DNA of 39,347 nucleotides, taken from the NCBI GenBank assembly GCA_913057675.1, contig CAJXOL010000008.1, forward strand, positions 1 through 39,347, read 5' to 3'. This DNA comes from an uncultured Pseudomonadota bacterium (lineage in GTDB: Bacteria > Pseudomonadota > Gammaproteobacteria > Burkholderiales > Eutrophovitaceae). Positions 25,568-38,950 of the stretch are shown here, in pieces. Every line of letters starts with the position of its first letter. Position 1 is the stretch's first letter. The notes beneath the pieces are model-generated. The model did not search any database. It had not been told where the DNA came from and worked only from the letters and a program-made list of their open reading frames with translations. A program made the position numbers and the translations under genes.

Positions 25568-25882
25568 TTAAGGCTTCAGACGTATATAAAGATTTCTCAT
25601 AATTATTAAGAGTGCCGCACCTTGTGCCGAAATGGAAATGCTTGCGACGATATCTTGCAGATAAATGCCGATTTCTGGTATTTCAGCTAGGACGGGAGCA
25701 AACATGGTCAGCGCTATAGAGCTTATGATCACCCGAACTTGTGCCTCGGATGGAGTGAAGTAACCAAGGAAAAATCCGGCAATTAGCAATAATAATGCTG
25801 CGTAAGGAATTGCTACTAATTCAATACCAACTAAAATTGCTATAAGTAGTCCTATGTAGCCAACGATTTTGTCTGTATTCAT
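25568..25882 (-). CDS. Small hypothetical multi-TM membrane protein (104 aa)
   Basis: MNTDKIVGYIGLLIAILVGIELVAIPYAALLLLIAGFFLGYF...; good Shine-Dalgarno (GGAGG) upstream of the Met at 25882; ORF as listed starts at 25951. Confidence 0.65.
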   Translation of the reverse strand: MNTDKIVGYIGLLIAILVGIELVAIPYAALLLLIAGFFLGYFTPSEAQVRVIISSIALTMFAPVLAEIPEIGIYLQDIVASISISAQGAALLIIMRNLYIRLKP

Positions 25883-25938
25883 AACGCCTCCGTGGAAGTT
25901 TTTGAAGTAAAACAATGCGCACCAAGACTGTGCATTGT

Positions 25939-25967
25939 ATTTATCCCCCACTTAAAATTTTTGTCAA
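25939..25967 (-). promoter_or_regulatory. Candidate sigma70 promoter for the small membrane protein gene
   Basis: On minus strand: TTGACA (25967-25962), 17-bp spacer, ATAAAT (25944-25939). Confidence 0.6.
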
Positions 25968-26459: not shown

Positions 26460-27320
26460 ATGATGCTACCAGTGACGAATTTTTTTAAAAATCGTAGCTT
26501 ATTCTTTTGCGTGATTATGGTTTTTTGTTCCTTAGTCTCTGCTAAGACGGCTGATTTTTCAGATTGTGATGTATGTCCCTTGATGGTACCTATACCCCAA
26601 GGTTCGTTCGAGCTGCGTGTTCCTCCCTGGGGACCTGGGCACCCGAATGATGAAGGCTATTTTTATACCGTAACTTTTTCCAAGCCTTATGCTATCGCTA
26701 AATATGAGATCACCGCTTTAAATTGGAGGCAGTGTGTTTCAGATAATGCTTGTCCTCAGCTTGAGCTGAAAAGATCAATTCGTGACGAATTTCCTATATT
26801 TAATGTGACCTGGCGAGAGGCCAATCGATTTGCAAAATGGTTATCCAAGAAAACAGGTTTTAGATATAGACTTCCGTCAAATGCCGAATGGGAGTATGCA
26901 GCCCGCGCGGGGTTGGGTATGAATCGTTATTTTGGTATTCCTGCCGCATCACTCTGTGTTTTTTCAAATACTTATGATCAAACTGCAGATCAAAAATACG
27001 AATCAGGGGCAGGGGTTATTCCTTGCTCGGATGGATTTCATGAGCTTGCTCCTGTAGGACAATTCGCGCCTAATAATTTTGGCGTTTACGATTCGATTGG
27101 TAACGTGTCGGAATGGACCGAGGATTGTGCGAGCCCGGATTGGCGCGGAGCGCCGCAAGATGGCAAAGCTTGGCTTAAGGGAGACTGTTCTTTGAGGGGC
27201 TTTAGAGGAGGGTCTTGGTTAAATAATGAACCGTATTATTTAGTTGAGTCCAGCCGTTTTAGGTACTGGGGTTCTCGGGCTGATGATTTAGGGTTTCGAC
27301 TGGTCAGAGAGGTTGAGTAA
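26460..27320 (+). CDS. Exported FGE-sulfatase-domain (SUMF1/EgtB/PvdO-like) protein lacking the catalytic cysteines
   Basis: Signal peptide then VPIPQGSFELR...YAIAKYEITALNWRQCV...FPIFNVTWREANRFAKWLSKKTGFRYRLPSNAEWEYAARAG...FGVYDSIGNVSEWTEDC...RGFRGGSWLNNEPYYLVESSRFRYWGSRADDLGFRLV. Confidence 0.9.
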   Translation: MMLPVTNFFKNRSLFFCVIMVFCSLVSAKTADFSDCDVCPLMVPIPQGSFELRVPPWGPGHPNDEGYFYTVTFSKPYAIAKYEITALNWRQCVSDNACPQLELKRSIRDEFPIFNVTWREANRFAKWLSKKTGFRYRLPSNAEWEYAARAGLGMNRYFGIPAASLCVFSNTYDQTADQKYESGAGVIPCSDGFHELAPVGQFAPNNFGVYDSIGNVSEWTEDCASPDWRGAPQDGKAWLKGDCSLRGFRGGSWLNNEPYYLVESSRFRYWGSRADDLGFRLVREVE

Positions 27321-27872: not shown

Positions 27873-29276
27873 TTGCGTATATCACAAAGGAGTTTTTCGG
27901 AGGGCTTGATTGGCCATGGGTTTATCGTGGCTAATAACGTTGTTCCGCCAAGTTTAATTAGACGTGGTCGCCATGCTTGGTTTAGTCCTCGGCTATGGCT
28001 ACGAAGGGTAACCCTTTGGTTTGGTGCTGTCTTAGTCGGTGTTGTGGCAATTTTTTTTGCAATGAGCGCCGAATACGCCAATTCGCTCCATCAAGAAGTT
28101 GTAGAGCTTTCCCCATTATTACCGTTTGTAGTTGGCCCAGCGGGCTTGGCATTTGTTGTATGGATAACTCGCAAATTTTTTCCGGGTTCACAGGGTAGCG
28201 GTATTCCTCAAACGATAGCTGCTATTGATACGGAAAACGAGGAGCGTAGGGGACAATATTTGTCTATACGGCTTGCGCTCGGGAAGTTCTTGCTCACGGT
28301 GGTTGGTCTTTTTTCGGGTGCATCGGTTGGTCGAGAGGGCCCTACAGTGCAAATTGGGGCATCGATTATGCAATCTCTTGGTCGGTTCACCCGATTCTCC
28401 CGGGTAGAGACAAAGCGCGGCTTAATACTTGCAGGCGGTGCGGCAGGAGTGGCCGCGGCGTTCAACACACCGCTTGCGGGAATTGTGTTCGCGATTGAAG
28501 AAATGAGCCGAAACTACGAAAGTCGCACAAGTGGCACGGTACTAACTTCAGTTATTGTGGCGGGAATAGTGTCCATTTGGTGGCTTGGGGACTACACTTA
28601 TTTTGGGACGACATCGGCTATTCTGAATGGATCAAGCGCCTGGATTCCAGTCATTGTATGTGGCGTGATTGGAGGAGTCCTGGGTGGAGCATTCAGCCAA
28701 TCGTTAATTTTTATATCCCGCGGGATACCTGGGAAAATCGGTACATTTGCTAAAAATAGCCCCATTTATTTTGCTGCAGTATGTGGATTTTTGCTTGCAG
28801 TAATCGGCGCATTTTCGGGTAGTTCCACATATGGTACTGGCTATCACGAGGCGCGCATGATCTTGGAAGGAACGGGTGAGATATCTGAGTCATTTGGTTT
28901 TTTAAAATTATTGGCAACGCTAATTTCTTATGTTAGCGGTATTCCCGGTGGAGTGTTCGCTCCTTCTTTAGCAATTGGGGCGGGATTGGGCCAGAATATC
29001 GCACTGATTATTCCTTATGTCCCGTTAGGTGCAGTCGTTGTTTTAGGTATGGTTGCCTATTTTGCTGGGGTGGTTCAAGCTCCGGTTACAGCTTTTGTCA
29101 TTGTTATGGAAATGACCGATAATCACGACATGATTGTGCCGTTAATGGCAGCTTCTTTATTAGCCGCAGGTTGCTCAAAAGTTGTTTGTCGGAAGCCGTT
29201 GTATCGCGCCCTGGCCGATCAATTTATAAATGAGTCTCAGTCTAAGGAATCAAAATCTGAGCCGCGTGATAAGTAG
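27873..29276 (+). CDS. ClC-family chloride channel/antiporter
   Basis: GSGIPQTIAAI, SGASVGREGPTVQIGASI, FNTPLAGIVFAIEEM, GIPGGVFAPSLAIGAGLG. Start uncertain (TTG 27873, TTG 27906 or GTG 27927). Confidence 0.93.
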   Translation: MRISQRSFSEGLIGHGFIVANNVVPPSLIRRGRHAWFSPRLWLRRVTLWFGAVLVGVVAIFFAMSAEYANSLHQEVVELSPLLPFVVGPAGLAFVVWITRKFFPGSQGSGIPQTIAAIDTENEERRGQYLSIRLALGKFLLTVVGLFSGASVGREGPTVQIGASIMQSLGRFTRFSRVETKRGLILAGGAAGVAAAFNTPLAGIVFAIEEMSRNYESRTSGTVLTSVIVAGIVSIWWLGDYTYFGTTSAILNGSSAWIPVIVCGVIGGVLGGAFSQSLIFISRGIPGKIGTFAKNSPIYFAAVCGFLLAVIGAFSGSSTYGTGYHEARMILEGTGEISESFGFLKLLATLISYVSGIPGGVFAPSLAIGAGLGQNIALIIPYVPLGAVVVLGMVAYFAGVVQAPVTAFVIVMEMTDNHDMIVPLMAASLLAAGCSKVVCRKPLYRALADQFINESQSKESKSEPRDK

Positions 29277-29491: not shown

Positions 29492-30925
29492 TTAAGGGCG
29501 TTGCGGGTTTTCGCTCCAAATCATTGGTGTGTAATGATCGCGAGCATTAGATAGATCTTTTAAATAAAGTGAAGGAACCATTTCCCAAGAAGCCTCTAGT
29601 AATGCATCTGTGAGCTTATCAGCGATTTCTGGATATTTATTTACGACATTTATTTCTTCTGAAGGGTCTCTTCCAATATCATAGAGTTCCCTTTGCGACG
29701 GGAGTGTACTCACTAAAATGAGTTTCCAATTGTCTCTTAAGATAGCGCCACCCAGTTCTGTCACGTTGAGTATTAGTGTTCTGCTTAAGAGTAATTTATT
29801 TTCAAAAAGTAGCGGTGAGATGCTAATGCCGTCTACCGGTTTGACCTGGTCGTTTTTGCCCATGGGAGCTCCAGCAATTTCAAGTAATGTCGTATACAGG
29901 TCAGAGACGTGGACGCGCTCTGTAGAAATTGTTGGTTTGATTTTTGCGGGCCAGGAGACTATGGCTGGGACACGCACACCACCTTCATACAGTGATCCAC
30001 TGCCCGAACGAAATGGACCATTGTCACTGACGGTTTTTTGACTATCACCATCCCCAGATAAATATTTTCGTTTGACTGAGCCACCACTATCACTATGAAA
30101 AACAATGACTGTATTTTGGCGAATGCCTTTTTTATCGAGTGCCGAGAGAATTTTGCCAACACCCGCGTCAATTTGCGCAACCATACCCAGATAGGTTTGT
30201 GTTACTTGATCCTCGAACTGGTTGAATTTTGTCACAAGGTGTTCGGGTGCTTGAAGTGGCATTCCGGGCGTTGGGAAGCTAATCATCATAAAAAGCGGTA
30301 TGGTCTGATCGTGCTGATCAATGATAGCTGCAGATTTTTCACTAATTAAGTCGGTTGCATATCCAAATTCCGTAATTTGTTTTTCATTTTCAAACCAGTC
30401 AGTTAGACCGATGGTGTTAATTTTTTTTAGGTGGTCTCCAGTCGGAGTGAGGCTACCATAGAAATAATCAAACCCTCTTTGTGTTGGAAGATGATTCCTT
30501 TGAGCGTGACCCAGCAACCAAGAACCAAGCATGGCCGTTCGATAGCCCGCTAGGTTTAACGCTTGGGGAAGTAGGCGTTCTCCCTCAGGAATACCATAGG
30601 TACTCCAAGATAAAATTGAATTTGTTTGGAGTCCAAATCGATAGGGATAGCGGCCAGTCAGAAGTGCTGCACGCGACGACGACGAATAAGGTAGCGTATA
30701 AAAACCTTCGAGACGTACCCCAGAGTCTGATAGGGCATCAATATTAGGTGTTGGGGCACGTCCCCCATGTATCCCCAGATCTTTCCATCCTAAGTCATTC
30801 GTCATGATGTAAATGATATGGGGCTTATCTCCTGCGGTCGCCCATCCAGGATAGCTGACGCAACTTATGCAACCAATAAATGTCACGACGACAAAGAAAA
30901 ACCGTATAAATGGATTGAATCTCAT
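29492..30925 (-). CDS. Sulfatase-fold (arylsulfatase-like) secreted protein with degenerate active site; predicted pseudoenzyme
   Basis: 477 aa with signal peptide; HIIYIMTNDLGWKDLGIHGG, FYTLPYSSSSRAALLTGRYP, QRGFDYFYG, NTVIVFHSDSGG, SLYEGGVRVPAIVSWPAKI. Confidence 0.92.
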   Translation of the reverse strand: MRFNPFIRFFFVVVTFIGCISCVSYPGWATAGDKPHIIYIMTNDLGWKDLGIHGGRAPTPNIDALSDSGVRLEGFYTLPYSSSSRAALLTGRYPYRFGLQTNSILSWSTYGIPEGERLLPQALNLAGYRTAMLGSWLLGHAQRNHLPTQRGFDYFYGSLTPTGDHLKKINTIGLTDWFENEKQITEFGYATDLISEKSAAIIDQHDQTIPLFMMISFPTPGMPLQAPEHLVTKFNQFEDQVTQTYLGMVAQIDAGVGKILSALDKKGIRQNTVIVFHSDSGGSVKRKYLSGDGDSQKTVSDNGPFRSGSGSLYEGGVRVPAIVSWPAKIKPTISTERVHVSDLYTTLLEIAGAPMGKNDQVKPVDGISISPLLFENKLLLSRTLILNVTELGGAILRDNWKLILVSTLPSQRELYDIGRDPSEEINVVNKYPEIADKLTDALLEASWEMVPSLYLKDLSNARDHYTPMIWSENPQRP

Positions 30926-31051
30926 AGCCTCAGTATATCTGATCGGTTAATGCAACGATATTTTCCATTATCGTTATCCTCAAGCTATTTATATATTGTT
31001 GTCTGCGAAGTTAGGCGACCCATTTAGGCTTGGTATACAATCAGTGTCATA

Positions 31052-32653
31052 ATGTCTATATCTGGCTCCTCAGAAATTAAGCAGTTGGTCTCAGCTGTAG
31101 CTCGCAAATTAAGACTTAGTCGTCTGATAAGCGAGATTGGATTTGTTGTGGCTGTGATATTTTTTGCCTTTGCAGCTTTATTGGTTTTATCGATCCCTTT
31201 TGAATTCGTTACATCTCCTTGGGCATTCGTTGGCTTTGGTATATTTACCCTAGGTTTGTTCGTGTATGTCTGGTTCAAGGCTTGGACAAGTGTTGATGCT
31301 CAGGATGCGGCACGATATCTTGATGAGAGAGCAGGGCTGAAAGATGAGGTATTGAGTGCACTTTGGTTTATAGATTCGACCGGAAAGCAGTCAAGTATTG
31401 GGGGGGGCGATTTTGTTGCCGCTCATCTTGAACGTGCTGTCGCGCGTATCCAACCAATTAAGGCAGATAAGATGGTGCCACTGCGTTTCCCCCAAAGCAG
31501 CAAATTTGCAGTTGTAGCGATCTTATTTTTCTCAGTTACTTGGGTAGGGACATCAAATGTCGTGATTGCCCACAGGGCAGATTTGGCCGTTCGAACTACG
31601 CTAAGTTCGGAGGGTGTGGACGCAGTTCCGAGACCAGTTTTTGATGGGCGGGAAGCGGTTGGTATTGAAGAAATTAATGATGCCCTCGAAGCGCTCCAGC
31701 GCGATGACATCACTTTTGAAGCAAAAAAAGAGGCGTTAAAAAAGGCCAGAGAAGTATTGGACCAAATCAATATGGACGCAGTTATGACGCGCGAAGGATT
31801 GTCTAAATTGTCAAAACTTCTTATAGATCAAAAGGGCTTTGAAGGCGTTGGAAGAGCTTTGGAGCAGGGCAATATTCAAGAAGCCTTAGTGCTACTTAAA
31901 GAAAAGCAAGAAGAGCTTGCCGCTTTATCCGATATGGATGGGCAACTTGGTATTGAGGAGCAACAAGCAGGGTCAACGGCCCGCAGCGAAGACATATCTT
32001 CGGGCGAGCTTGGAGACGCTGCACGTGATCTTATGAATGAGGTTGGGCGACCAGACCCACGAAACATTACACGGTTAATCGAAAATTTAGAGCAAGCACA
32101 GCAGGATATGGAGTCTCAAGAAAGAGCGAATACAGCTGCATCTAGAATGGAGAGCGCGGGTGAGCGTATTGGGCTGGCCCAAACCGGTGCTGCGGATTAT
32201 GGCGGTAGATCAGCCACATCCGACCAAGCAGAAGCGGGCAATGGGACACCATCACCTGACGCTGGAAATAACGATATGGCGGGCGGCTCGCTTTTTCGTC
32301 AAGGCTCAGTGACTGCTAGCGAAGAAGACCAAGGGGATGATGGGAGCTCAACTGGGGCACCCGAAGGGCACGCTGCAGCATTAGCGTTGGAAGGCCGAAT
32401 GACGCAACGTTTGGATGCGGTTTTACGTCTAGAAAAAACTCAAGTTAAAGGGGATGATAGTGTTGAAGGTGAGGAGTCGGCTTGGGAGTTTCAAGCGAGC
32501 AAGAAAGGAAAAGCTCGAACCGAAATCGTCCAAGGAATAGATTCTGTCACTTATGATGACTCAGATGTACTTAACAGTGAATTTGTTTCTGTAGAGCAAA
32601 GACAAGCAGTGCAACAATATTTTTTAGAAATTCATGAAGGAAATAAGAGATGA
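31052..32653 (+). CDS. DUF4175-like membrane protein, first gene of MoxR/VWA operon
   Basis: Two N-terminal TM helices, YLDERAGLKDEVLSALWF, coiled/low-complexity C-terminus; overlaps the downstream MoxR gene by 4 nt. Confidence 0.6.
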   Translation: MSISGSSEIKQLVSAVARKLRLSRLISEIGFVVAVIFFAFAALLVLSIPFEFVTSPWAFVGFGIFTLGLFVYVWFKAWTSVDAQDAARYLDERAGLKDEVLSALWFIDSTGKQSSIGGGDFVAAHLERAVARIQPIKADKMVPLRFPQSSKFAVVAILFFSVTWVGTSNVVIAHRADLAVRTTLSSEGVDAVPRPVFDGREAVGIEEINDALEALQRDDITFEAKKEALKKAREVLDQINMDAVMTREGLSKLSKLLIDQKGFEGVGRALEQGNIQEALVLLKEKQEELAALSDMDGQLGIEEQQAGSTARSEDISSGELGDAARDLMNEVGRPDPRNITRLIENLEQAQQDMESQERANTAASRMESAGERIGLAQTGAADYGGRSATSDQAEAGNGTPSPDAGNNDMAGGSLFRQGSVTASEEDQGDDGSSTGAPEGHAAALALEGRMTQRLDAVLRLEKTQVKGDDSVEGEESAWEFQASKKGKARTEIVQGIDSVTYDDSDVLNSEFVSVEQRQAVQQYFLEIHEGNKR

Positions 32654-33645
32654 CGTCAAGCGTGGAACAACAGGTAAAAGTTTTTCAGGATCGTTTCTCT
32701 CAGGTGGTTGATGAGGTCTCGAAAGTTATTGTTGGTAATGGAGATGTGATTTCAAATGTCTTGACGTGTTTGCTGGTTCGCGGGCATGTGTTACTCGAGG
32801 GTATTCCCGGAGTAGGTAAGACGAAGCTCGTGCAAACGCTATCGGATGCTACTGATCTTGGCTTTTCCCGAATACAATTTACGCCTGACTTGATGCCTGG
32901 TGACATCATCGGTTCCAACGTCGTAAGAGAAACTGATGACGGTAAAAAATCGTTTGAATTTCAGAGAGGCCCCGTGTTTACAAACATCCTGCTTGCAGAT
33001 GAAATCAATAGAGCAACACCCAAAACACAGTCTGCCCTTTTGGAGGCGATGCAGGAAAATAGTGTCTCAGCCGGCGGTTCGACGCACAAACTTGATCAGC
33101 CGTTCTTTGTTCTCGCGACCCAAAACCCAATCGAGATGGAAGGCACCTATCCATTGCCTGAAGCACAAATGGATCGATTTTTATTTAAGTTGAGATTGGA
33201 TTTTCCCGAGGCAGCAGATTTGTTAACAATTGTTGAACGTACCACACAACAAGATGACTTGACTGCATCACACGTTCTCAGCAAAGCTGAGATATTGGAA
33301 ATGAGGGAAACAGCACGTGCAGTTGCTGTTGCTCAGCCGGTTATGCAGTATGCAATAGCTCTTGCGCTTGCGACTCATCCTGAAAGTAGCGAAGGACATG
33401 ATTTAGCTAAGCGATATGTTCGATTTGGTTCGAGTCCTCGAGGCGTGCAGTCATTGATTTTGGGTGCGAAAGTAAATGCGCTGCTCAATGATCGGTTTTA
33501 TGTGAGTGTTGAAGATGTCAAAGCGGTTGTGATGCCAGCATTAAGACATCGCGTTCTGATTAACTTTGAAGCTGAGGCGGAGAAAGTAGACTCTGACCAC
33601 ATTCTTGAGGAAATTGTTCGCTGTGTTGCATTACCTAAAACGTAA
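32650..33645 (+). CDS. MoxR family AAA+ ATPase
   Basis: LLEGIPGVGKTKLVQTLS, FTPDLMPGDIIGSNV, LLADEINRATPKTQSALLEAMQE, FVLATQNPIEMEGTYPLPEAQMDRFLFKL. Confidence 0.97.
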   Translation: MTSSVEQQVKVFQDRFSQVVDEVSKVIVGNGDVISNVLTCLLVRGHVLLEGIPGVGKTKLVQTLSDATDLGFSRIQFTPDLMPGDIIGSNVVRETDDGKKSFEFQRGPVFTNILLADEINRATPKTQSALLEAMQENSVSAGGSTHKLDQPFFVLATQNPIEMEGTYPLPEAQMDRFLFKLRLDFPEAADLLTIVERTTQQDDLTASHVLSKAEILEMRETARAVAVAQPVMQYAIALALATHPESSEGHDLAKRYVRFGSSPRGVQSLILGAKVNALLNDRFYVSVEDVKAVVMPALRHRVLINFEAEAEKVDSDHILEEIVRCVALPKT

Positions 33646-33700: not shown

Positions 33701-34579
33701 ATGTCGACTCTTCTAAGTAAGGAATTTCTGCGTCGTTTAGACGGCATTTCATTGCTACTTCGCCGGCCGGTGGCGGGGCACTTGCGCGGGCAACATAGAT
33801 CACGTCGAACTGGTTTTGGCATGATCTTTGCTGATTATCGACCTTATTCTTCTGGTGATGATACTCGGAACCTCGATTGGGCTACTTACATGCGCTTGGA
33901 TCGCTTGGTACTTCGTATGTTTGAGGAAGAGGCTGACACGCCGATATATATACTTATTGACAATAGTGCATCAATGGGTGGTGCGGAGTCAGAAAAGCTG
34001 AAAGTGGCCAAAAAATTTGCTGCAGTTTTGGCTTATGTAGGACTTCTAAATCATGATCGTGTGAGCTTAATTTCATTTTCTGACGGTGTGCTGAAAGAGA
34101 TGCCGGGGCGACGTGGTAAGAACCAAATGTGGCGCGCAATACATTTTCTTGATTCTTTGAAAAATGAAGGCCGAACAAATTTGGCCAATACTTTTCGGCG
34201 ATTTTTTGGAACTGGCCGGACCCGAGGTCTAGTATTCGTGATTTCAGATTTTTTGTTTGAGCAAACATTGGAAGATAGTTTTCGCCCGCTTACTCAACAC
34301 GGACATGATGTTTTTGCTGGACACATTATTGACCCGGAGGAAGAAAGTCCCAGTTTGAATGGGCAAGTTGTTTTGGTCGATTCAGAAACGCGCGAATCGC
34401 TAAACGCTCAAGTGACAGAAACGATGCTGGCAAACTATCGAGCGGAATTCAATAAGTACCGAACGAAGACAGAGCAGTTTTTTAAGCACGCAGGATGGAA
34501 CTATGTGCCTATAAGAACAGACGGAAATTTTGAAGCTTCTGTTCTCGCCGCTCTAAAGGGCGAAGGTATCTTTAGATGA
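33701..34579 (+). CDS. DUF58 domain-containing protein
   Basis: RSRRTGFGMIFADYRPYSSGDDTRNLDWATYMRLDRLVLRMFEEEADTPIYILIDNSASM. Confidence 0.95.
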   Translation: MSTLLSKEFLRRLDGISLLLRRPVAGHLRGQHRSRRTGFGMIFADYRPYSSGDDTRNLDWATYMRLDRLVLRMFEEEADTPIYILIDNSASMGGAESEKLKVAKKFAAVLAYVGLLNHDRVSLISFSDGVLKEMPGRRGKNQMWRAIHFLDSLKNEGRTNLANTFRRFFGTGRTRGLVFVISDFLFEQTLEDSFRPLTQHGHDVFAGHIIDPEEESPSLNGQVVLVDSETRESLNAQVTETMLANYRAEFNKYRTKTEQFFKHAGWNYVPIRTDGNFEASVLAALKGEGIFR

Positions 34580-36366
34580 TGAATTTCTTCACATCCAGCC
34601 CTTTGTTCTCGCTCTTGTTAGTTGGATTGATCGGTACGGTGATCCTGCTCTATCTTTTGCGGCCTCCAGTGCTCAATCGATTGATATCATCTAATCTGAT
34701 TTGGAAGCGAGTGATTGGTTCTTCTCCTTTGATTAGTGAGCGTTGGCAGTGGTGGTTGTCCCTTTTGTTAGCTTTGTTGATTACGATTTTCTTGTTGTCA
34801 TCTGCGTTACGTCCTTCGGTTGATGGCCAGGCCGACGACAGAACATTGATCATTCTTGATAACTCTCCCTCTATGGAGGCTTTGACGCAGAGTGGACTCA
34901 GTCGCTACAGTGTTGCTAAAGATTCTGTTATGAAACTTTTGGCGTCTCTATCGAAAGATGTTCAAGTCATGCTGGTTGACACACAACGGCAAATCACCAC
35001 ACCCTCATTTAGTTCGGTTCCAGAAGCTTTTCAAATTCTAGAGCAACTTAAAATCGGCACGAGTCTTGAGGCTCTAGTCCCATCTCAGGTGGCTACAGTC
35101 GATGCTTCGAAAAAATTCATTTTTACGGATGGTGTCTTGATTGGTAGTGCCCCTGAGGGCTTTACTCTTGTCTCGGTGTTTCAATTAGCTCCTAATGTAG
35201 GGATCACCCGATTATCGTTTGCCACTGTTCCTGGGGATACACAAAGGAGGCAGGCATTCGTTGAGGTTGTGAATGCTGGGGGCGATTCGCAACTTGTTGA
35301 GATAGAATTGGCTCAGTCTCAGTCCCTAAATCTAACGAGACGAGTCGATGTAGGTCCTTATGAGAAAGTAACCCACATATTTGATGCTACGAAGTTTGAT
35401 AGTGGCCCGGTAAAGGCGGCTGTGTTCTCTAGCACTGACAGGTTTAAGGCGGACGATACCGCTTTTGGATACATCACCGAGAAGAAGCAAGTTCGGGTGG
35501 GGTTTGTTGCGAACACGCAGGAGTCGAAGTTACTAACTTTACTCAGCTTAATGCCGCGTGTGTCTGTGAACGCACTAACACCGGCCGAGTATGATGCTCT
35601 TAAGCCTGCGGAGATGAGTTTTGATGCATTGGTATTTGATGGCGTTCCAGCTGAGCGTAAACCTATTGTTCCGTCTATTTTCTTTGGCGTTGATTCGCCT
35701 ACTTGGTTGGATATTACTGTCACGCCAATTCGCAGTTCACAATTGGCAGTCAAAAAAAATACCGCACACCCTATTCTTCGAAATATATCTATGTCAGATC
35801 TGTTGTTAGAGACTGCGTTCGTTTTTGGCGCTAGTGATTTAGCGGATACCTTGCTTGAAGCTGAGAGTGGTGAAATTGTGGCAGTTGCTGTACCCGGTTC
35901 AGTTAAAAATATTTTACTTGGATTCGATCTTGATAAATCTAATCTTACATTTCTTGCGGATTTTCCAATTCTCCTCTCGAATTCAATTGCTTGGTTAGTT
36001 GATGGCGCTCCGATTTTAAGTGTTAATCCGGGAGTTGTGAAGCTTCCGGGAGATGTGACAAAGGTTTATCGTATCGATGGTGTCGATATACCCCTTTGGT
36101 TTGCTGATGGAAAGGCATATTTCCACACTCAGGAGACGGGGTTGTACACAGCGTTTACGTCCAATGGCCCTTTAAGGGTTTCGGTCAGTCAGTTGGATCG
36201 TCGTTTTAGCGATATTAACGCTTCAAAGTTGCCGACTCTTGGGTCTTCTCAAGACATTGTGAATCCGGGATTGAGAGGATATTCGTTTGCATTTCTGGCT
36301 GGCGCTTTGACCCTTATTTTATTGATGCTCGATTGGTACTTGTACCACCGGCGTATTACCCAGTGA
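34576..36366 (+). CDS. BatA-type N-terminal domain plus VWA-containing membrane protein
   Basis: N-terminal TM pair (SPLFSLLLVGLIGTVILLYLLRPP), VWA MIDAS-like TLIILDNSPSMEAL, C-terminal TM; 4-nt overlap with DUF58 gene. Confidence 0.88.
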   Translation: MMNFFTSSPLFSLLLVGLIGTVILLYLLRPPVLNRLISSNLIWKRVIGSSPLISERWQWWLSLLLALLITIFLLSSALRPSVDGQADDRTLIILDNSPSMEALTQSGLSRYSVAKDSVMKLLASLSKDVQVMLVDTQRQITTPSFSSVPEAFQILEQLKIGTSLEALVPSQVATVDASKKFIFTDGVLIGSAPEGFTLVSVFQLAPNVGITRLSFATVPGDTQRRQAFVEVVNAGGDSQLVEIELAQSQSLNLTRRVDVGPYEKVTHIFDATKFDSGPVKAAVFSSTDRFKADDTAFGYITEKKQVRVGFVANTQESKLLTLLSLMPRVSVNALTPAEYDALKPAEMSFDALVFDGVPAERKPIVPSIFFGVDSPTWLDITVTPIRSSQLAVKKNTAHPILRNISMSDLLLETAFVFGASDLADTLLEAESGEIVAVAVPGSVKNILLGFDLDKSNLTFLADFPILLSNSIAWLVDGAPILSVNPGVVKLPGDVTKVYRIDGVDIPLWFADGKAYFHTQETGLYTAFTSNGPLRVSVSQLDRRFSDINASKLPTLGSSQDIVNPGLRGYSFAFLAGALTLILLMLDWYLYHRRITQ

Positions 36367-36370
36367 AAAT

Positions 36371-38950
36371 GTGGTTCCTATGTTGAGTATTGAAAATCCA
36401 CACGCACTCTGGTTGATAGTAGGCTTGCCATTGATTTGGTGGATGGCTTTAAACACAAAGACGGCTCTTGGGCGTCGACATCTCCGATTGGCCAGTGGCC
36501 TTCGTGGGTTGGCGGTTTTAGCCATAATTGTAGGTTTGGCTCAGCCAATCGTTCGATATGCTAGTCAGGACGTGTCCGTAATCTATGCGGTTGATGTGTC
36601 ACGAAGTGTTGCTACGGAGTTCATAGGCAAAGCACTTAATTGGATTGATGCAGTAGAAGAACGGCATGACCCTGCGCTCTCCAAGATTGTGATTTTTGGG
36701 AAAAACCGCGCTGTCGTCTCTTCGACTCAGGAAGCAAGAGCCATAACCATTGCTGACTTTGGTTCAGACGCCCCGTTGAACGACTCCGAATACGTAGAGC
36801 AATCGGGTACTAATCTTCAAGATGCTATCGACGAGTCGCTTGCTTTACTGGATTCTGATTCTATTAAGAGGGTGGTTTTGTTTTCAGATGGCAATCAGAC
36901 GACAGGCTCGTTATTAGATTTAGTTCAATCTGCTCAAAGGTCTGATGTGCGTATTTTCCCCATGGTTGCTGAGTCTGCTCAGGTGGAAGATGCATGGATT
37001 AGCAACGTAAAATTGCCTGATCGACTCAGGGAATTTGAGCCTACGACTGCGTTGATCAATGTGTATAGTCCCAAAAAAGCCACTATTGAGGTCTCGATTT
37101 CAACTAATGGTCGATTAATTTCAACTCAAGTGTATCCGGTCGATCGTGGCTTCAATGATATGCAAATGAATATTAATTTTTCAGAGTCAGGATTGATACC
37201 TTTGGACATCTCAATCAATGTTGAAAATGATCCCTACCTTGAGAATAATCGTTCTCGAATGAGTGCGTGGGTTGAGAAAAAAGCTAGGGTGCTGTATCTG
37301 GAGGGCGTATCAGAATCTGCATCGTATTTGAGTGAGGCCTTGTCTGAGGAGGGCTTTGAGGTAGTTGTTCAGAACCGCATTCCTAAATATGATGAGTTGA
37401 AGTCGTATGATGCTCTGATACTCTCCGATATGTTGGCTCAAGAGATCTCCTCGAATTCTATGAAAGATATTAAGCGGTATGTTAAAGATTACGGTGGAGG
37501 GCTGATTTTTGCGGGAGGTGAAAACACATTTGGAGATGATGGATATTCCAATTCCGTTATTGAAGATTTGTTGCCTGCCAGTTTTCAAGCGCAGGAAAAA
37601 CGTAAAGATATTGCCCTTGTGATTGCAATTGACCGGTCATACAGTATGAAAGGTCGCAAGATTGAATACGCAAAAGAGGCTGCTCGGGCTTCTCTAGATT
37701 TGCTCGAAGAGCAGCATTACTTTGGTGTTGTTGCTTTTGATTCCCAGCCTTACGTCCCGGTGCCTGTTGAGACGGTCAAGTCCAAACGTAAGGCGGAGGC
37801 GCTTATTAGTCGTATTCAGGCGAGTGGGCAAACTAATATATACCCAGCGTTAGGCATCGTTTACCGGTTGCTCAAAGATCTTGAGGTCCCTACGAAGCAT
37901 GTCATTCTCCTATCAGATGGCGATACTGCCCCAGCAGAGTATGAGCGCTTGGTTCAAAGAATGAAGGATAGCAATATCGTGATCTCAACTGTGACGATTG
38001 GCGAAGGTGGAAATCCGGGTTTGATGCGGCAATTATCAGACTGGGGTGGAGGGCGGAATTATTTGGCGCTTTCCGCGGAATCGATTCCGCAGATTTTCAC
38101 GGAGGAGACGAAGAAGGTTGTGGGTACCAGCCTTGTAGAAGAGCCAACCCTGACAGTGATAAAACAAGAAATCGGGTCTTTATCCGGTATAGATTTACGA
38201 GCGGCTCCGCCGCTTAAGGGTCACATTGCCGTCAAGCCTAAAGATACCGCGGAGACAATATTGGTGACGCAACAGGGCGCGCCTTTATTAACGCGTTGGC
38301 AGTATGGTTTGGGGAAGACAATGTTTTTTACGTCGGACGTAAAAAACCGCTGGTCTGCTGATTGGGTTCAGTGGGCCGGCTATGGAAAATTTTGGTCACA
38401 ACTCACGCGCGATGTTCTGAGGCAGTTAGGTTCTACGACCGTGTTTTTCGATGGTGAGCGACAAGAAGGCGCAGCTATCTTTAATTTAATGTTACTTACG
38501 GAGGGGGGTAATTTTAGGAATGGTCTTGTTCCCGAGTTGAGCCTCAGCATTGGGCAGGAAGTTCGGACAGCTAACATGTCGCAAATTGCTCCGGGCCAAT
38601 ATCAATTACTAGTGCCATTCAAGGATCAGCAGCCAATTTCAGCGACGCTGTTAGCGAAGAGTGCTATCTCTGATGAGATTGTCGATATGGCTGGGTCAAG
38701 ATCTGTTTTCCCTGGGTTCCCTGCCGAATATCGCTTCTCAGGCCCGAATCTAGATTTATTATCGGCGGTTGCTTTGTCAACGGGGGGGCTGCTGGATGCG
38801 CGGGCTGAGGAAGTTTTTTCGCCTGCAACGGATGCAGCACATAAGCGTTTTGCATTGTGGCCTATCTTGATGATTTTGGCGCTGATCGCATATCTGGTTG
38901 ATATCTTTGTGCGCCGCTCTTCACTAGCTTGGGAACATTTATCCGACTAG
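36371..38950 (+). CDS. Large membrane protein with two VWA domains flanking a GATase1-like segment
   Basis: VSVIYAVDVSRSV (VWA1), YDALILSDMLAQEISSNSMKDIKRYVKDYGGGLIFAGGENTFGDDGY (GATase1-like), DIALVIAIDRSYSMKGRKIEYAKEA (VWA2), C-terminal TM. Start GTG 36371 or ATG 36380. Confidence 0.9.
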   Translation: MVPMLSIENPHALWLIVGLPLIWWMALNTKTALGRRHLRLASGLRGLAVLAIIVGLAQPIVRYASQDVSVIYAVDVSRSVATEFIGKALNWIDAVEERHDPALSKIVIFGKNRAVVSSTQEARAITIADFGSDAPLNDSEYVEQSGTNLQDAIDESLALLDSDSIKRVVLFSDGNQTTGSLLDLVQSAQRSDVRIFPMVAESAQVEDAWISNVKLPDRLREFEPTTALINVYSPKKATIEVSISTNGRLISTQVYPVDRGFNDMQMNINFSESGLIPLDISINVENDPYLENNRSRMSAWVEKKARVLYLEGVSESASYLSEALSEEGFEVVVQNRIPKYDELKSYDALILSDMLAQEISSNSMKDIKRYVKDYGGGLIFAGGENTFGDDGYSNSVIEDLLPASFQAQEKRKDIALVIAIDRSYSMKGRKIEYAKEAARASLDLLEEQHYFGVVAFDSQPYVPVPVETVKSKRKAEALISRIQASGQTNIYPALGIVYRLLKDLEVPTKHVILLSDGDTAPAEYERLVQRMKDSNIVISTVTIGEGGNPGLMRQLSDWGGGRNYLALSAESIPQIFTEETKKVVGTSLVEEPTLTVIKQEIGSLSGIDLRAAPPLKGHIAVKPKDTAETILVTQQGAPLLTRWQYGLGKTMFFTSDVKNRWSADWVQWAGYGKFWSQLTRDVLRQLGSTTVFFDGERQEGAAIFNLMLLTEGGNFRNGLVPELSLSIGQEVRTANMSQIAPGQYQLLVPFKDQQPISATLLAKSAISDEIVDMAGSRSVFPGFPAEYRFSGPNLDLLSAVALSTGGLLDARAEEVFSPATDAAHKRFALWPILMILALIAYLVDIFVRRSSLAWEHLSD

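Follow-up and report, generated by a model that had tools for sequence, protein, structure and literature searches.

The window, by which we mean the whole stretch of 39,347 nucleotides analysed, carries on its minus strand (29492..30925) a gene for a sulfatase-fold protein whose inactivity is well supported by its sequence, and which belongs to a clade of Burkholderiales proteins encoded beside an operon of the MoxR/VWA type. On balance, we lean towards the view that an exported dead sulfatase was recruited once by a MoxR/VWA envelope machine, in which it would be a subunit without catalysis and act as an adaptor or sensor. The earlier note on this DNA had described the eroded active site; the partnership with the operon, which it had not noticed, is the strongest new signal to emerge from the present analysis.

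Active site and fold of the pseudo-sulfatase

The open reading frame starts with ATG and encodes 477 amino acids, and it is full length, as the earlier note had stated without naming the strand. Its only hydrophobic segment, found by a hydropathy scan at residues 6-24, lies in a predicted N-terminal signal peptide of about residues 1-31 (30833..30925, minus strand; cleavage site inferred), which indicates that the protein is exported. The PF00884 model is covered completely (1-301/301; E 1.5e-52, 179 bits against a cut-off of 25), together with a weaker match to SGSH_C, and the AlphaFold2 model (mean pLDDT 85, pTM 0.86) finds human arylsulfatase B, ARSB (1fsu), as its top match in the PDB with a TM score of 0.80, so that the sulfatase fold is preserved.

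Residue columns were taken from a phmmer alignment to ARSB (1fsu; E 1.6e-62), in which all landmarks were placed unambiguously; the ARSB numbers are those of structure 1fsu. Seven of ten landmarks are replaced in the protein of the window (D53 by N43, C91 by S81, K145 by S135, H147 by L137, H242 by G221, N301 by S280 and K318 by S309), and three are retained (D54 as D44, R95 as R85 and D300 as D279). Every substitution listed in the earlier note was thus correct, and the catalytic residues have not been relocated elsewhere in the protein, but its statement that essentially the whole active site had been replaced is not literally true, since D44, R85 and D279 remain. The cysteine that would be converted to formylglycine is Ser81, within a signature that reads S-S-S-S-R instead of C/S-x-P/A-x-R; the catalytic histidines and lysines are absent, their places being taken by S135, L137, G221 and S309; and two of the four metal ligands are kept (N43, D44, D279, S280). 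No second PF00884 protein was found in the genome (2.13 Mb in 157 contigs, about 95% complete), which very probably lacks sulfate-ester hydrolysis.

A serine at the nucleophile position could belong to a Ser-type sulfatase matured by anSME. That candidate was rejected: no anSME match over the curated cut-off was obtained in 17 genomes and, with the histidine and lysine residues gone as well, Ser81 does not mark a Ser-type enzyme. A second candidate for a maturation partner, the FGE-domain (PvdO-type) protein encoded at 26460..27320 on the plus strand, near the pseudo-sulfatase in most members of the family, was also rejected as a real maturase. Its C-terminal motif reads RGGSWLNNEPYYLVESSRFRY, in which the two catalytic cysteines are missing, and because of their absence the protein cannot count as a formylglycine maker, whereas the FGE genes beside active relatives carry both (GGSFLCAPNYCRRYR). 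All the FGE-like ORFs recognised by this motif in the family loci that were read lack both cysteines, and when a bona fide FGE served as the query, the matches were partial only (22 genomes). Each genome of the family has from one to seven FGE-domain matches, with the recognised ORFs again devoid of both cysteines (L116, L117, L123, L129 and L137-L140), and such an expansion of PvdO-type proteins is surprising for genomes this small.

Distribution and graded loss of the active site

An orthologue is present in 17/17 genomes of the window's family, with identities from about 85% down to 48% and identical core losses, and close matches were obtained in 30 of the 399 sampled genomes of the order, including members of four further families (f17, f23, f29 and f39). 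The substitutions are therefore common to the whole family and to four others, which answers the question of shared orthologous changes that the earlier note had raised. We read the active site in 44 clade sequences, all from Burkholderiales. Serine replaces cysteine in 44/44, the substrate-side histidine at 221 is lost in 44/44 and that at 137 in 43/44, the exception being a copy of family f39 (L205), the sole one in the clade to retain it. The proline of the sulfatase signature is gone from most members, and the lysine partners are often lost beside both histidines. At least three landmarks have been lost by every one of the 44, as against ten of ten kept in all 27 sister and outgroup homologues, a contrast far removed from chance.

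Erosion is graded within the clade. Three of the four MoxR-type copies of family f23 keep seven landmarks of ten (D D S R K Q Q D N K); six are left in genus g3, four in the main copy of genus g4, and three or four in the window's genus. D44 and R85 are invariant (44/44), most members from other genera than the window's still have the metal ligands, and D279 and N280 are usually kept; position 43, a metal-ligand aspartate, is asparagine in the window's genus. The change N280S is the least general of all: it occurs in four of the 44 sequences, one of them from an independent genome (L005), and the majority of the window's genus has asparagine there, whereas the other changes recur in all or many of the relatives. 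In family f39, two copies (L205 and L210) have changed D279 to N and N280 to C or S, separately from the changes in the window's genus.

This pattern bears on whether the protein might have kept some chemistry. In those members of other genera that have D44, R85 and the metal ligands still in place, the protein may bind some ligand or carry out an altered chemistry. Ser81 could conceivably serve as nucleophile at the remaining metal site, as in those enzymes of the alkaline phosphatase superfamily whose nucleophile is serine, and the serine is indeed as invariant (44/44) as D44 and R85. We nevertheless hold such altered catalysis to be improbable, for both histidine partners and often the lysine partners have gone, positions in the pocket region vary, and the lineage of the window has lost two metal ligands as well and is still under purifying selection.

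Outside the clade, the nearest homologues are mostly alphaproteobacterial (Rhizobiales/Rhodobacterales) and have complete sites (10/10). No active clade member was seen within the order among matches at E<=1e-80 (399 genomes), and no clade member outside it, where searches of the class (369 genomes) and the phylum (399 genomes) yielded complete enzymes only. The best plasmid matches are rhizobial genes about 50% identical, and viral contigs gave a single remote match (27% identity).

Four genomes of genus g4 (G013-G016; L021, L022, L025, L027 and L031) have seven to ten PF00884 matches each, several of them with intact Cys-type sites, and searches of these genomes recovered no bona fide FGE and no anSME.

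Phylogeny and selection

The 44 clade sequences fall on one side of a branch with an SH-aLRT value of 97, in a tree built without the active-site columns by a quick method without bootstrap, in which a few of the outgroup branches are long; their neighbours are complete enzymes, mostly of Rhizobiales and Rhodobacterales. We count this single clade in favour of one recruitment, which we would place in a common ancestor of several families of the Burkholderiales.

Nei-Gojobori dN/dS of the pseudo-sulfatase was 0.067-0.177 over the computable pairs within the genus, close to the values for dnaG (0.07-0.10) and for the VWA, Bat-like and first membrane genes of the operon (0.07-0.17). Because the most distant pairs approach or have reached saturation at synonymous sites, it is the closer pairs (0.10-0.18) that carry weight, and they too point to purifying selection. 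No internal stop was present in any match to the pseudo-sulfatase query, in the family and order searches alike. Seen alone, the gene of the window would look like an ordinary decaying gene or an assembly error; however, the losses are shared by 44 sequences free of internal stops, the gene is universal in the family, dN/dS is 0.07-0.18 and N280S recurs in the independent genome, so that decay or artefact was ruled out and retains a practically negligible probability. The proposal of the earlier note that the protein is selected for a non-catalytic role, and is not decaying, gains support from the shared losses, from these dN/dS values and from the preserved fold.

Linkage to a MoxR/VWA operon

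A divergent intergenic region of 126 bp (30926..31051) separates the pseudo-sulfatase from an operon on the plus strand. Its first gene (31052..32653) encodes a membrane protein of 533 amino acids with two to three predicted transmembrane segments and no Pfam match over the cut-off, and is the divergent neighbour of the pseudo-sulfatase in most clade members. It is followed by genes for a MoxR-type AAA+ ATPase (AAA_3, AAA_lid_2; 32650..33645) without transmembrane segment or signal, a DUF58 protein with a VWA_2 match (33701..34579), a Bat-like membrane protein with a weak VWA_2 match and predicted transmembrane segments near both ends (34576..36366), and a membrane-anchored protein of 859 amino acids that combines VWA and glutamine-amidotransferase-like (GATase) regions (36371..38950). 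On the other side, a ClC-type chloride channel gene (27873..29276, plus strand) lies between the FGE-like gene and the pseudo-sulfatase; we do not think that this neighbour is part of the module.

Operon genes cluster with the pseudo-sulfatase at every one of the 41 clade loci whose flanks were readable, that is, in 18/18 loci of the window's family (window included) and 23/23 of the other four families, and the linkage is well supported on these counts. MoxR is visible in 28 of them, eight are of a MoxR-less type and in five the contig ends before MoxR would be reached. The MoxR-less type is a second form of the operon, which lacks DUF58 as well and keeps the Bat-like protein, the VWA protein and the pseudo-sulfatase (L159, L196, L199, L201, L203, L206, L211 and L213); our search did not recognise the first membrane gene in some of these clusters, and the distance to the Bat-like gene is as large as about 4 kb (L206). 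The arrangement is divergent in 39 loci and codirectional in two (L199 and L203), and since these two are still linked, the association outlives rearrangement. Moreover, the VWA and pseudo-sulfatase trees contain the same groups, with pairwise distance correlations of 0.90 for the VWA protein and 0.92 for the Bat-like one. Judged by these sequence comparisons, the pseudo-sulfatase is co-duplicated with the operon.

The reverse dependence is looser. Three operon copies of close type (L221, L222 and L223) have no recognisable pseudo-sulfatase adjacent to them, and more distant operons (L218-L220; families f6 and f46) have none either, which means that the protein is not needed by every operon of this kind. 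Near the complete relatives no MoxR/VWA operon was found; several of them adjoin an FGE gene instead. It is quite conceivable, if a little short of an even chance, that the clade is a new pseudoenzyme family in which catalysis was lost once, the FGE partner was replaced by the MoxR/VWA operon and the protein became a dedicated exported receptor subunit.

It might be supposed that the sulfatase-fold protein is a client, folded or metallated by the machine as NOR is by NorQD, with its real job elsewhere. Dedicated targets are indeed remodelled or metallated by MoxR/VWA pairs (PMC13036017), but the protein is predicted to be exported, whereas MoxR has neither transmembrane segment nor signal, and its metal ligands are eroding; we rate this explanation as very improbable.

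Conserved surfaces and a possible role

Comparison with active relatives separates two kinds of positions. Several that are invariant in those enzymes, W146, E162, H137 and H221 among them, lie in the pocket region and vary in the clade, while S103, R117, D292, D294, W470 and N473 are newly conserved in it. D292 and D294 belong to a GDGD loop modelled with low confidence. W470 and N473 belong to a C-terminal tail (residues 464-477, ...PMIWSENPQRP, W..NP.R; 29495..29536, minus strand) in which the former is conserved and the latter invariant; the tail is absent from active relatives and is also modelled with low confidence. Conservation of unstructured segments suggests partner contacts, and a conserved tail with a low-confidence model is what would be expected of a docking segment, so we regard the tail as a candidate docking motif.

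The example of glycan or ligand binding offered in the earlier note is not specifically supported by these data, as W146, E162, H221 and other positions of the pocket region vary. A related idea, for which YejM would be the model but which we consider unlikely, is that some envelope component, whether sulfated, phosphorylated or lipid, is still bound by the inactive pocket and reported by the protein, which would then be a sensor and not a structural subunit of the operon's machine. Retention of D44, R85 and usually D279/N280 would allow an anion or a metal to bind in most members, and YejM keeps a hydrophobic pocket without the catalytic residues of LtaS (PMC7240159). Nevertheless, positions of the pocket region that are invariant in active relatives vary in the clade, and the window's genus has changed D43 to N and, in some members, N280 to S.

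We return to the adaptor or sensor within the MoxR/VWA machine, a role that we infer from the linkage, the co-duplication and the tail. The folded domain would sit in the periplasm and bind the periplasmic part of the Bat-like or VWA membrane proteins, perhaps through the conserved W..NP.R tail, and it would not cleave sulfate esters. Through the membrane VWA proteins, it might then signal the presence of a client, or the state of the envelope, to the cytosolic MoxR AAA+ ATPase.

Relation to known systems

The pseudo-sulfatase shares its fold and PF00884 with S1 sulfatases such as human ARSB (1fsu), the carrageenan sulfatases 6bia and 6psm, and the Rhizobiales/Rhodobacterales arylsulfatases (L040-L054), an alphaproteobacterial group to which it is 38-42% identical. 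Unlike them, it has no cysteine nucleophile and no catalytic histidines or lysines, no FGE or anSME maturase was found for it, and its genomic neighbours are others. Automated annotation by fold or by PF00884 would name the proteins of this clade sulfatases and ascribe to the genome an ability to split sulfate esters, very probably wrongly.

The nearest precedent for a hydrolase-like domain in the periplasm without catalytic activity is the envelope protein YejM/PbgA/LapC of Enterobacteria, a likeness drawn from its published description. Its structure is related to the LtaS hydrolases, the solved domain lacking the catalytic residues of LtaS (PMC7240159), and it works with the AAA+ system FtsH (PMC7240159; PMC9356133). 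The two differ in that YejM has five N-terminal transmembrane helices, resembles LtaS and acts on LpxC through LapB/FtsH, whereas the pseudo-sulfatase has a signal peptide only, resembles ARSB and adjoins a MoxR/VWA operon. A different lesion is seen in nine SulfAtlas sequences, whose signature no longer has its positively charged residue and which are possibly inactive (PMC5066984). A full-text search for a sulfatase-type pseudoenzyme ("pseudosulfatase") found no description, in a literature where subscription papers are partially covered, so that this absence is no proof. Pseudoenzymes of the superfamily are already known; what appears to be undescribed is a whole clade of them tied to a MoxR/VWA operon.

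On the side of the operon, the MoxR-VWA systems (Bat, RavA-ViaA and NorQ-NorD) have, within a single operon, genes for a MoxR AAA+ ATPase together with those for DUF58 and for membrane proteins of the VWA type, as here (PMC3557215; PMC13036017), and none with a linked sulfatase-fold protein was found in the literature searched. Leptospira biflexa from which every bat gene had been deleted showed no phenotype in growth, in morphology or under oxidative stress (PMC3557215). The strict, co-duplicating link described above offers a concrete way into the question of what is recognised by envelope systems of the MoxR/VWA (Bat-like) kind and, if the clade is the new family of dedicated subunits considered above, these systems would gain an extracytoplasmic recognition module, a receptor for a substrate or for the state of the envelope. 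The different degrees to which the genera have lost the active site also provide a natural series for studying the change of an enzyme into a binding protein.

Two further features of the locus are conserved. Between rpoD and the FGE-like gene, the minus strand encodes (25568-25951) a small membrane protein of 127 amino acids with four predicted transmembrane segments, which has no NCBIfam match and has orthologues in two other loci (L144 and L146). The intergenic region upstream of the operon contains TTGGTATACAA, an element that other members of the genus also have near the start of the operon; a conserved TTGTATACCA element occurs there genus-wide, close to the operon start (the window, L143, L144, L145, L146, L147 and L150), and may be an operator or promoter element.
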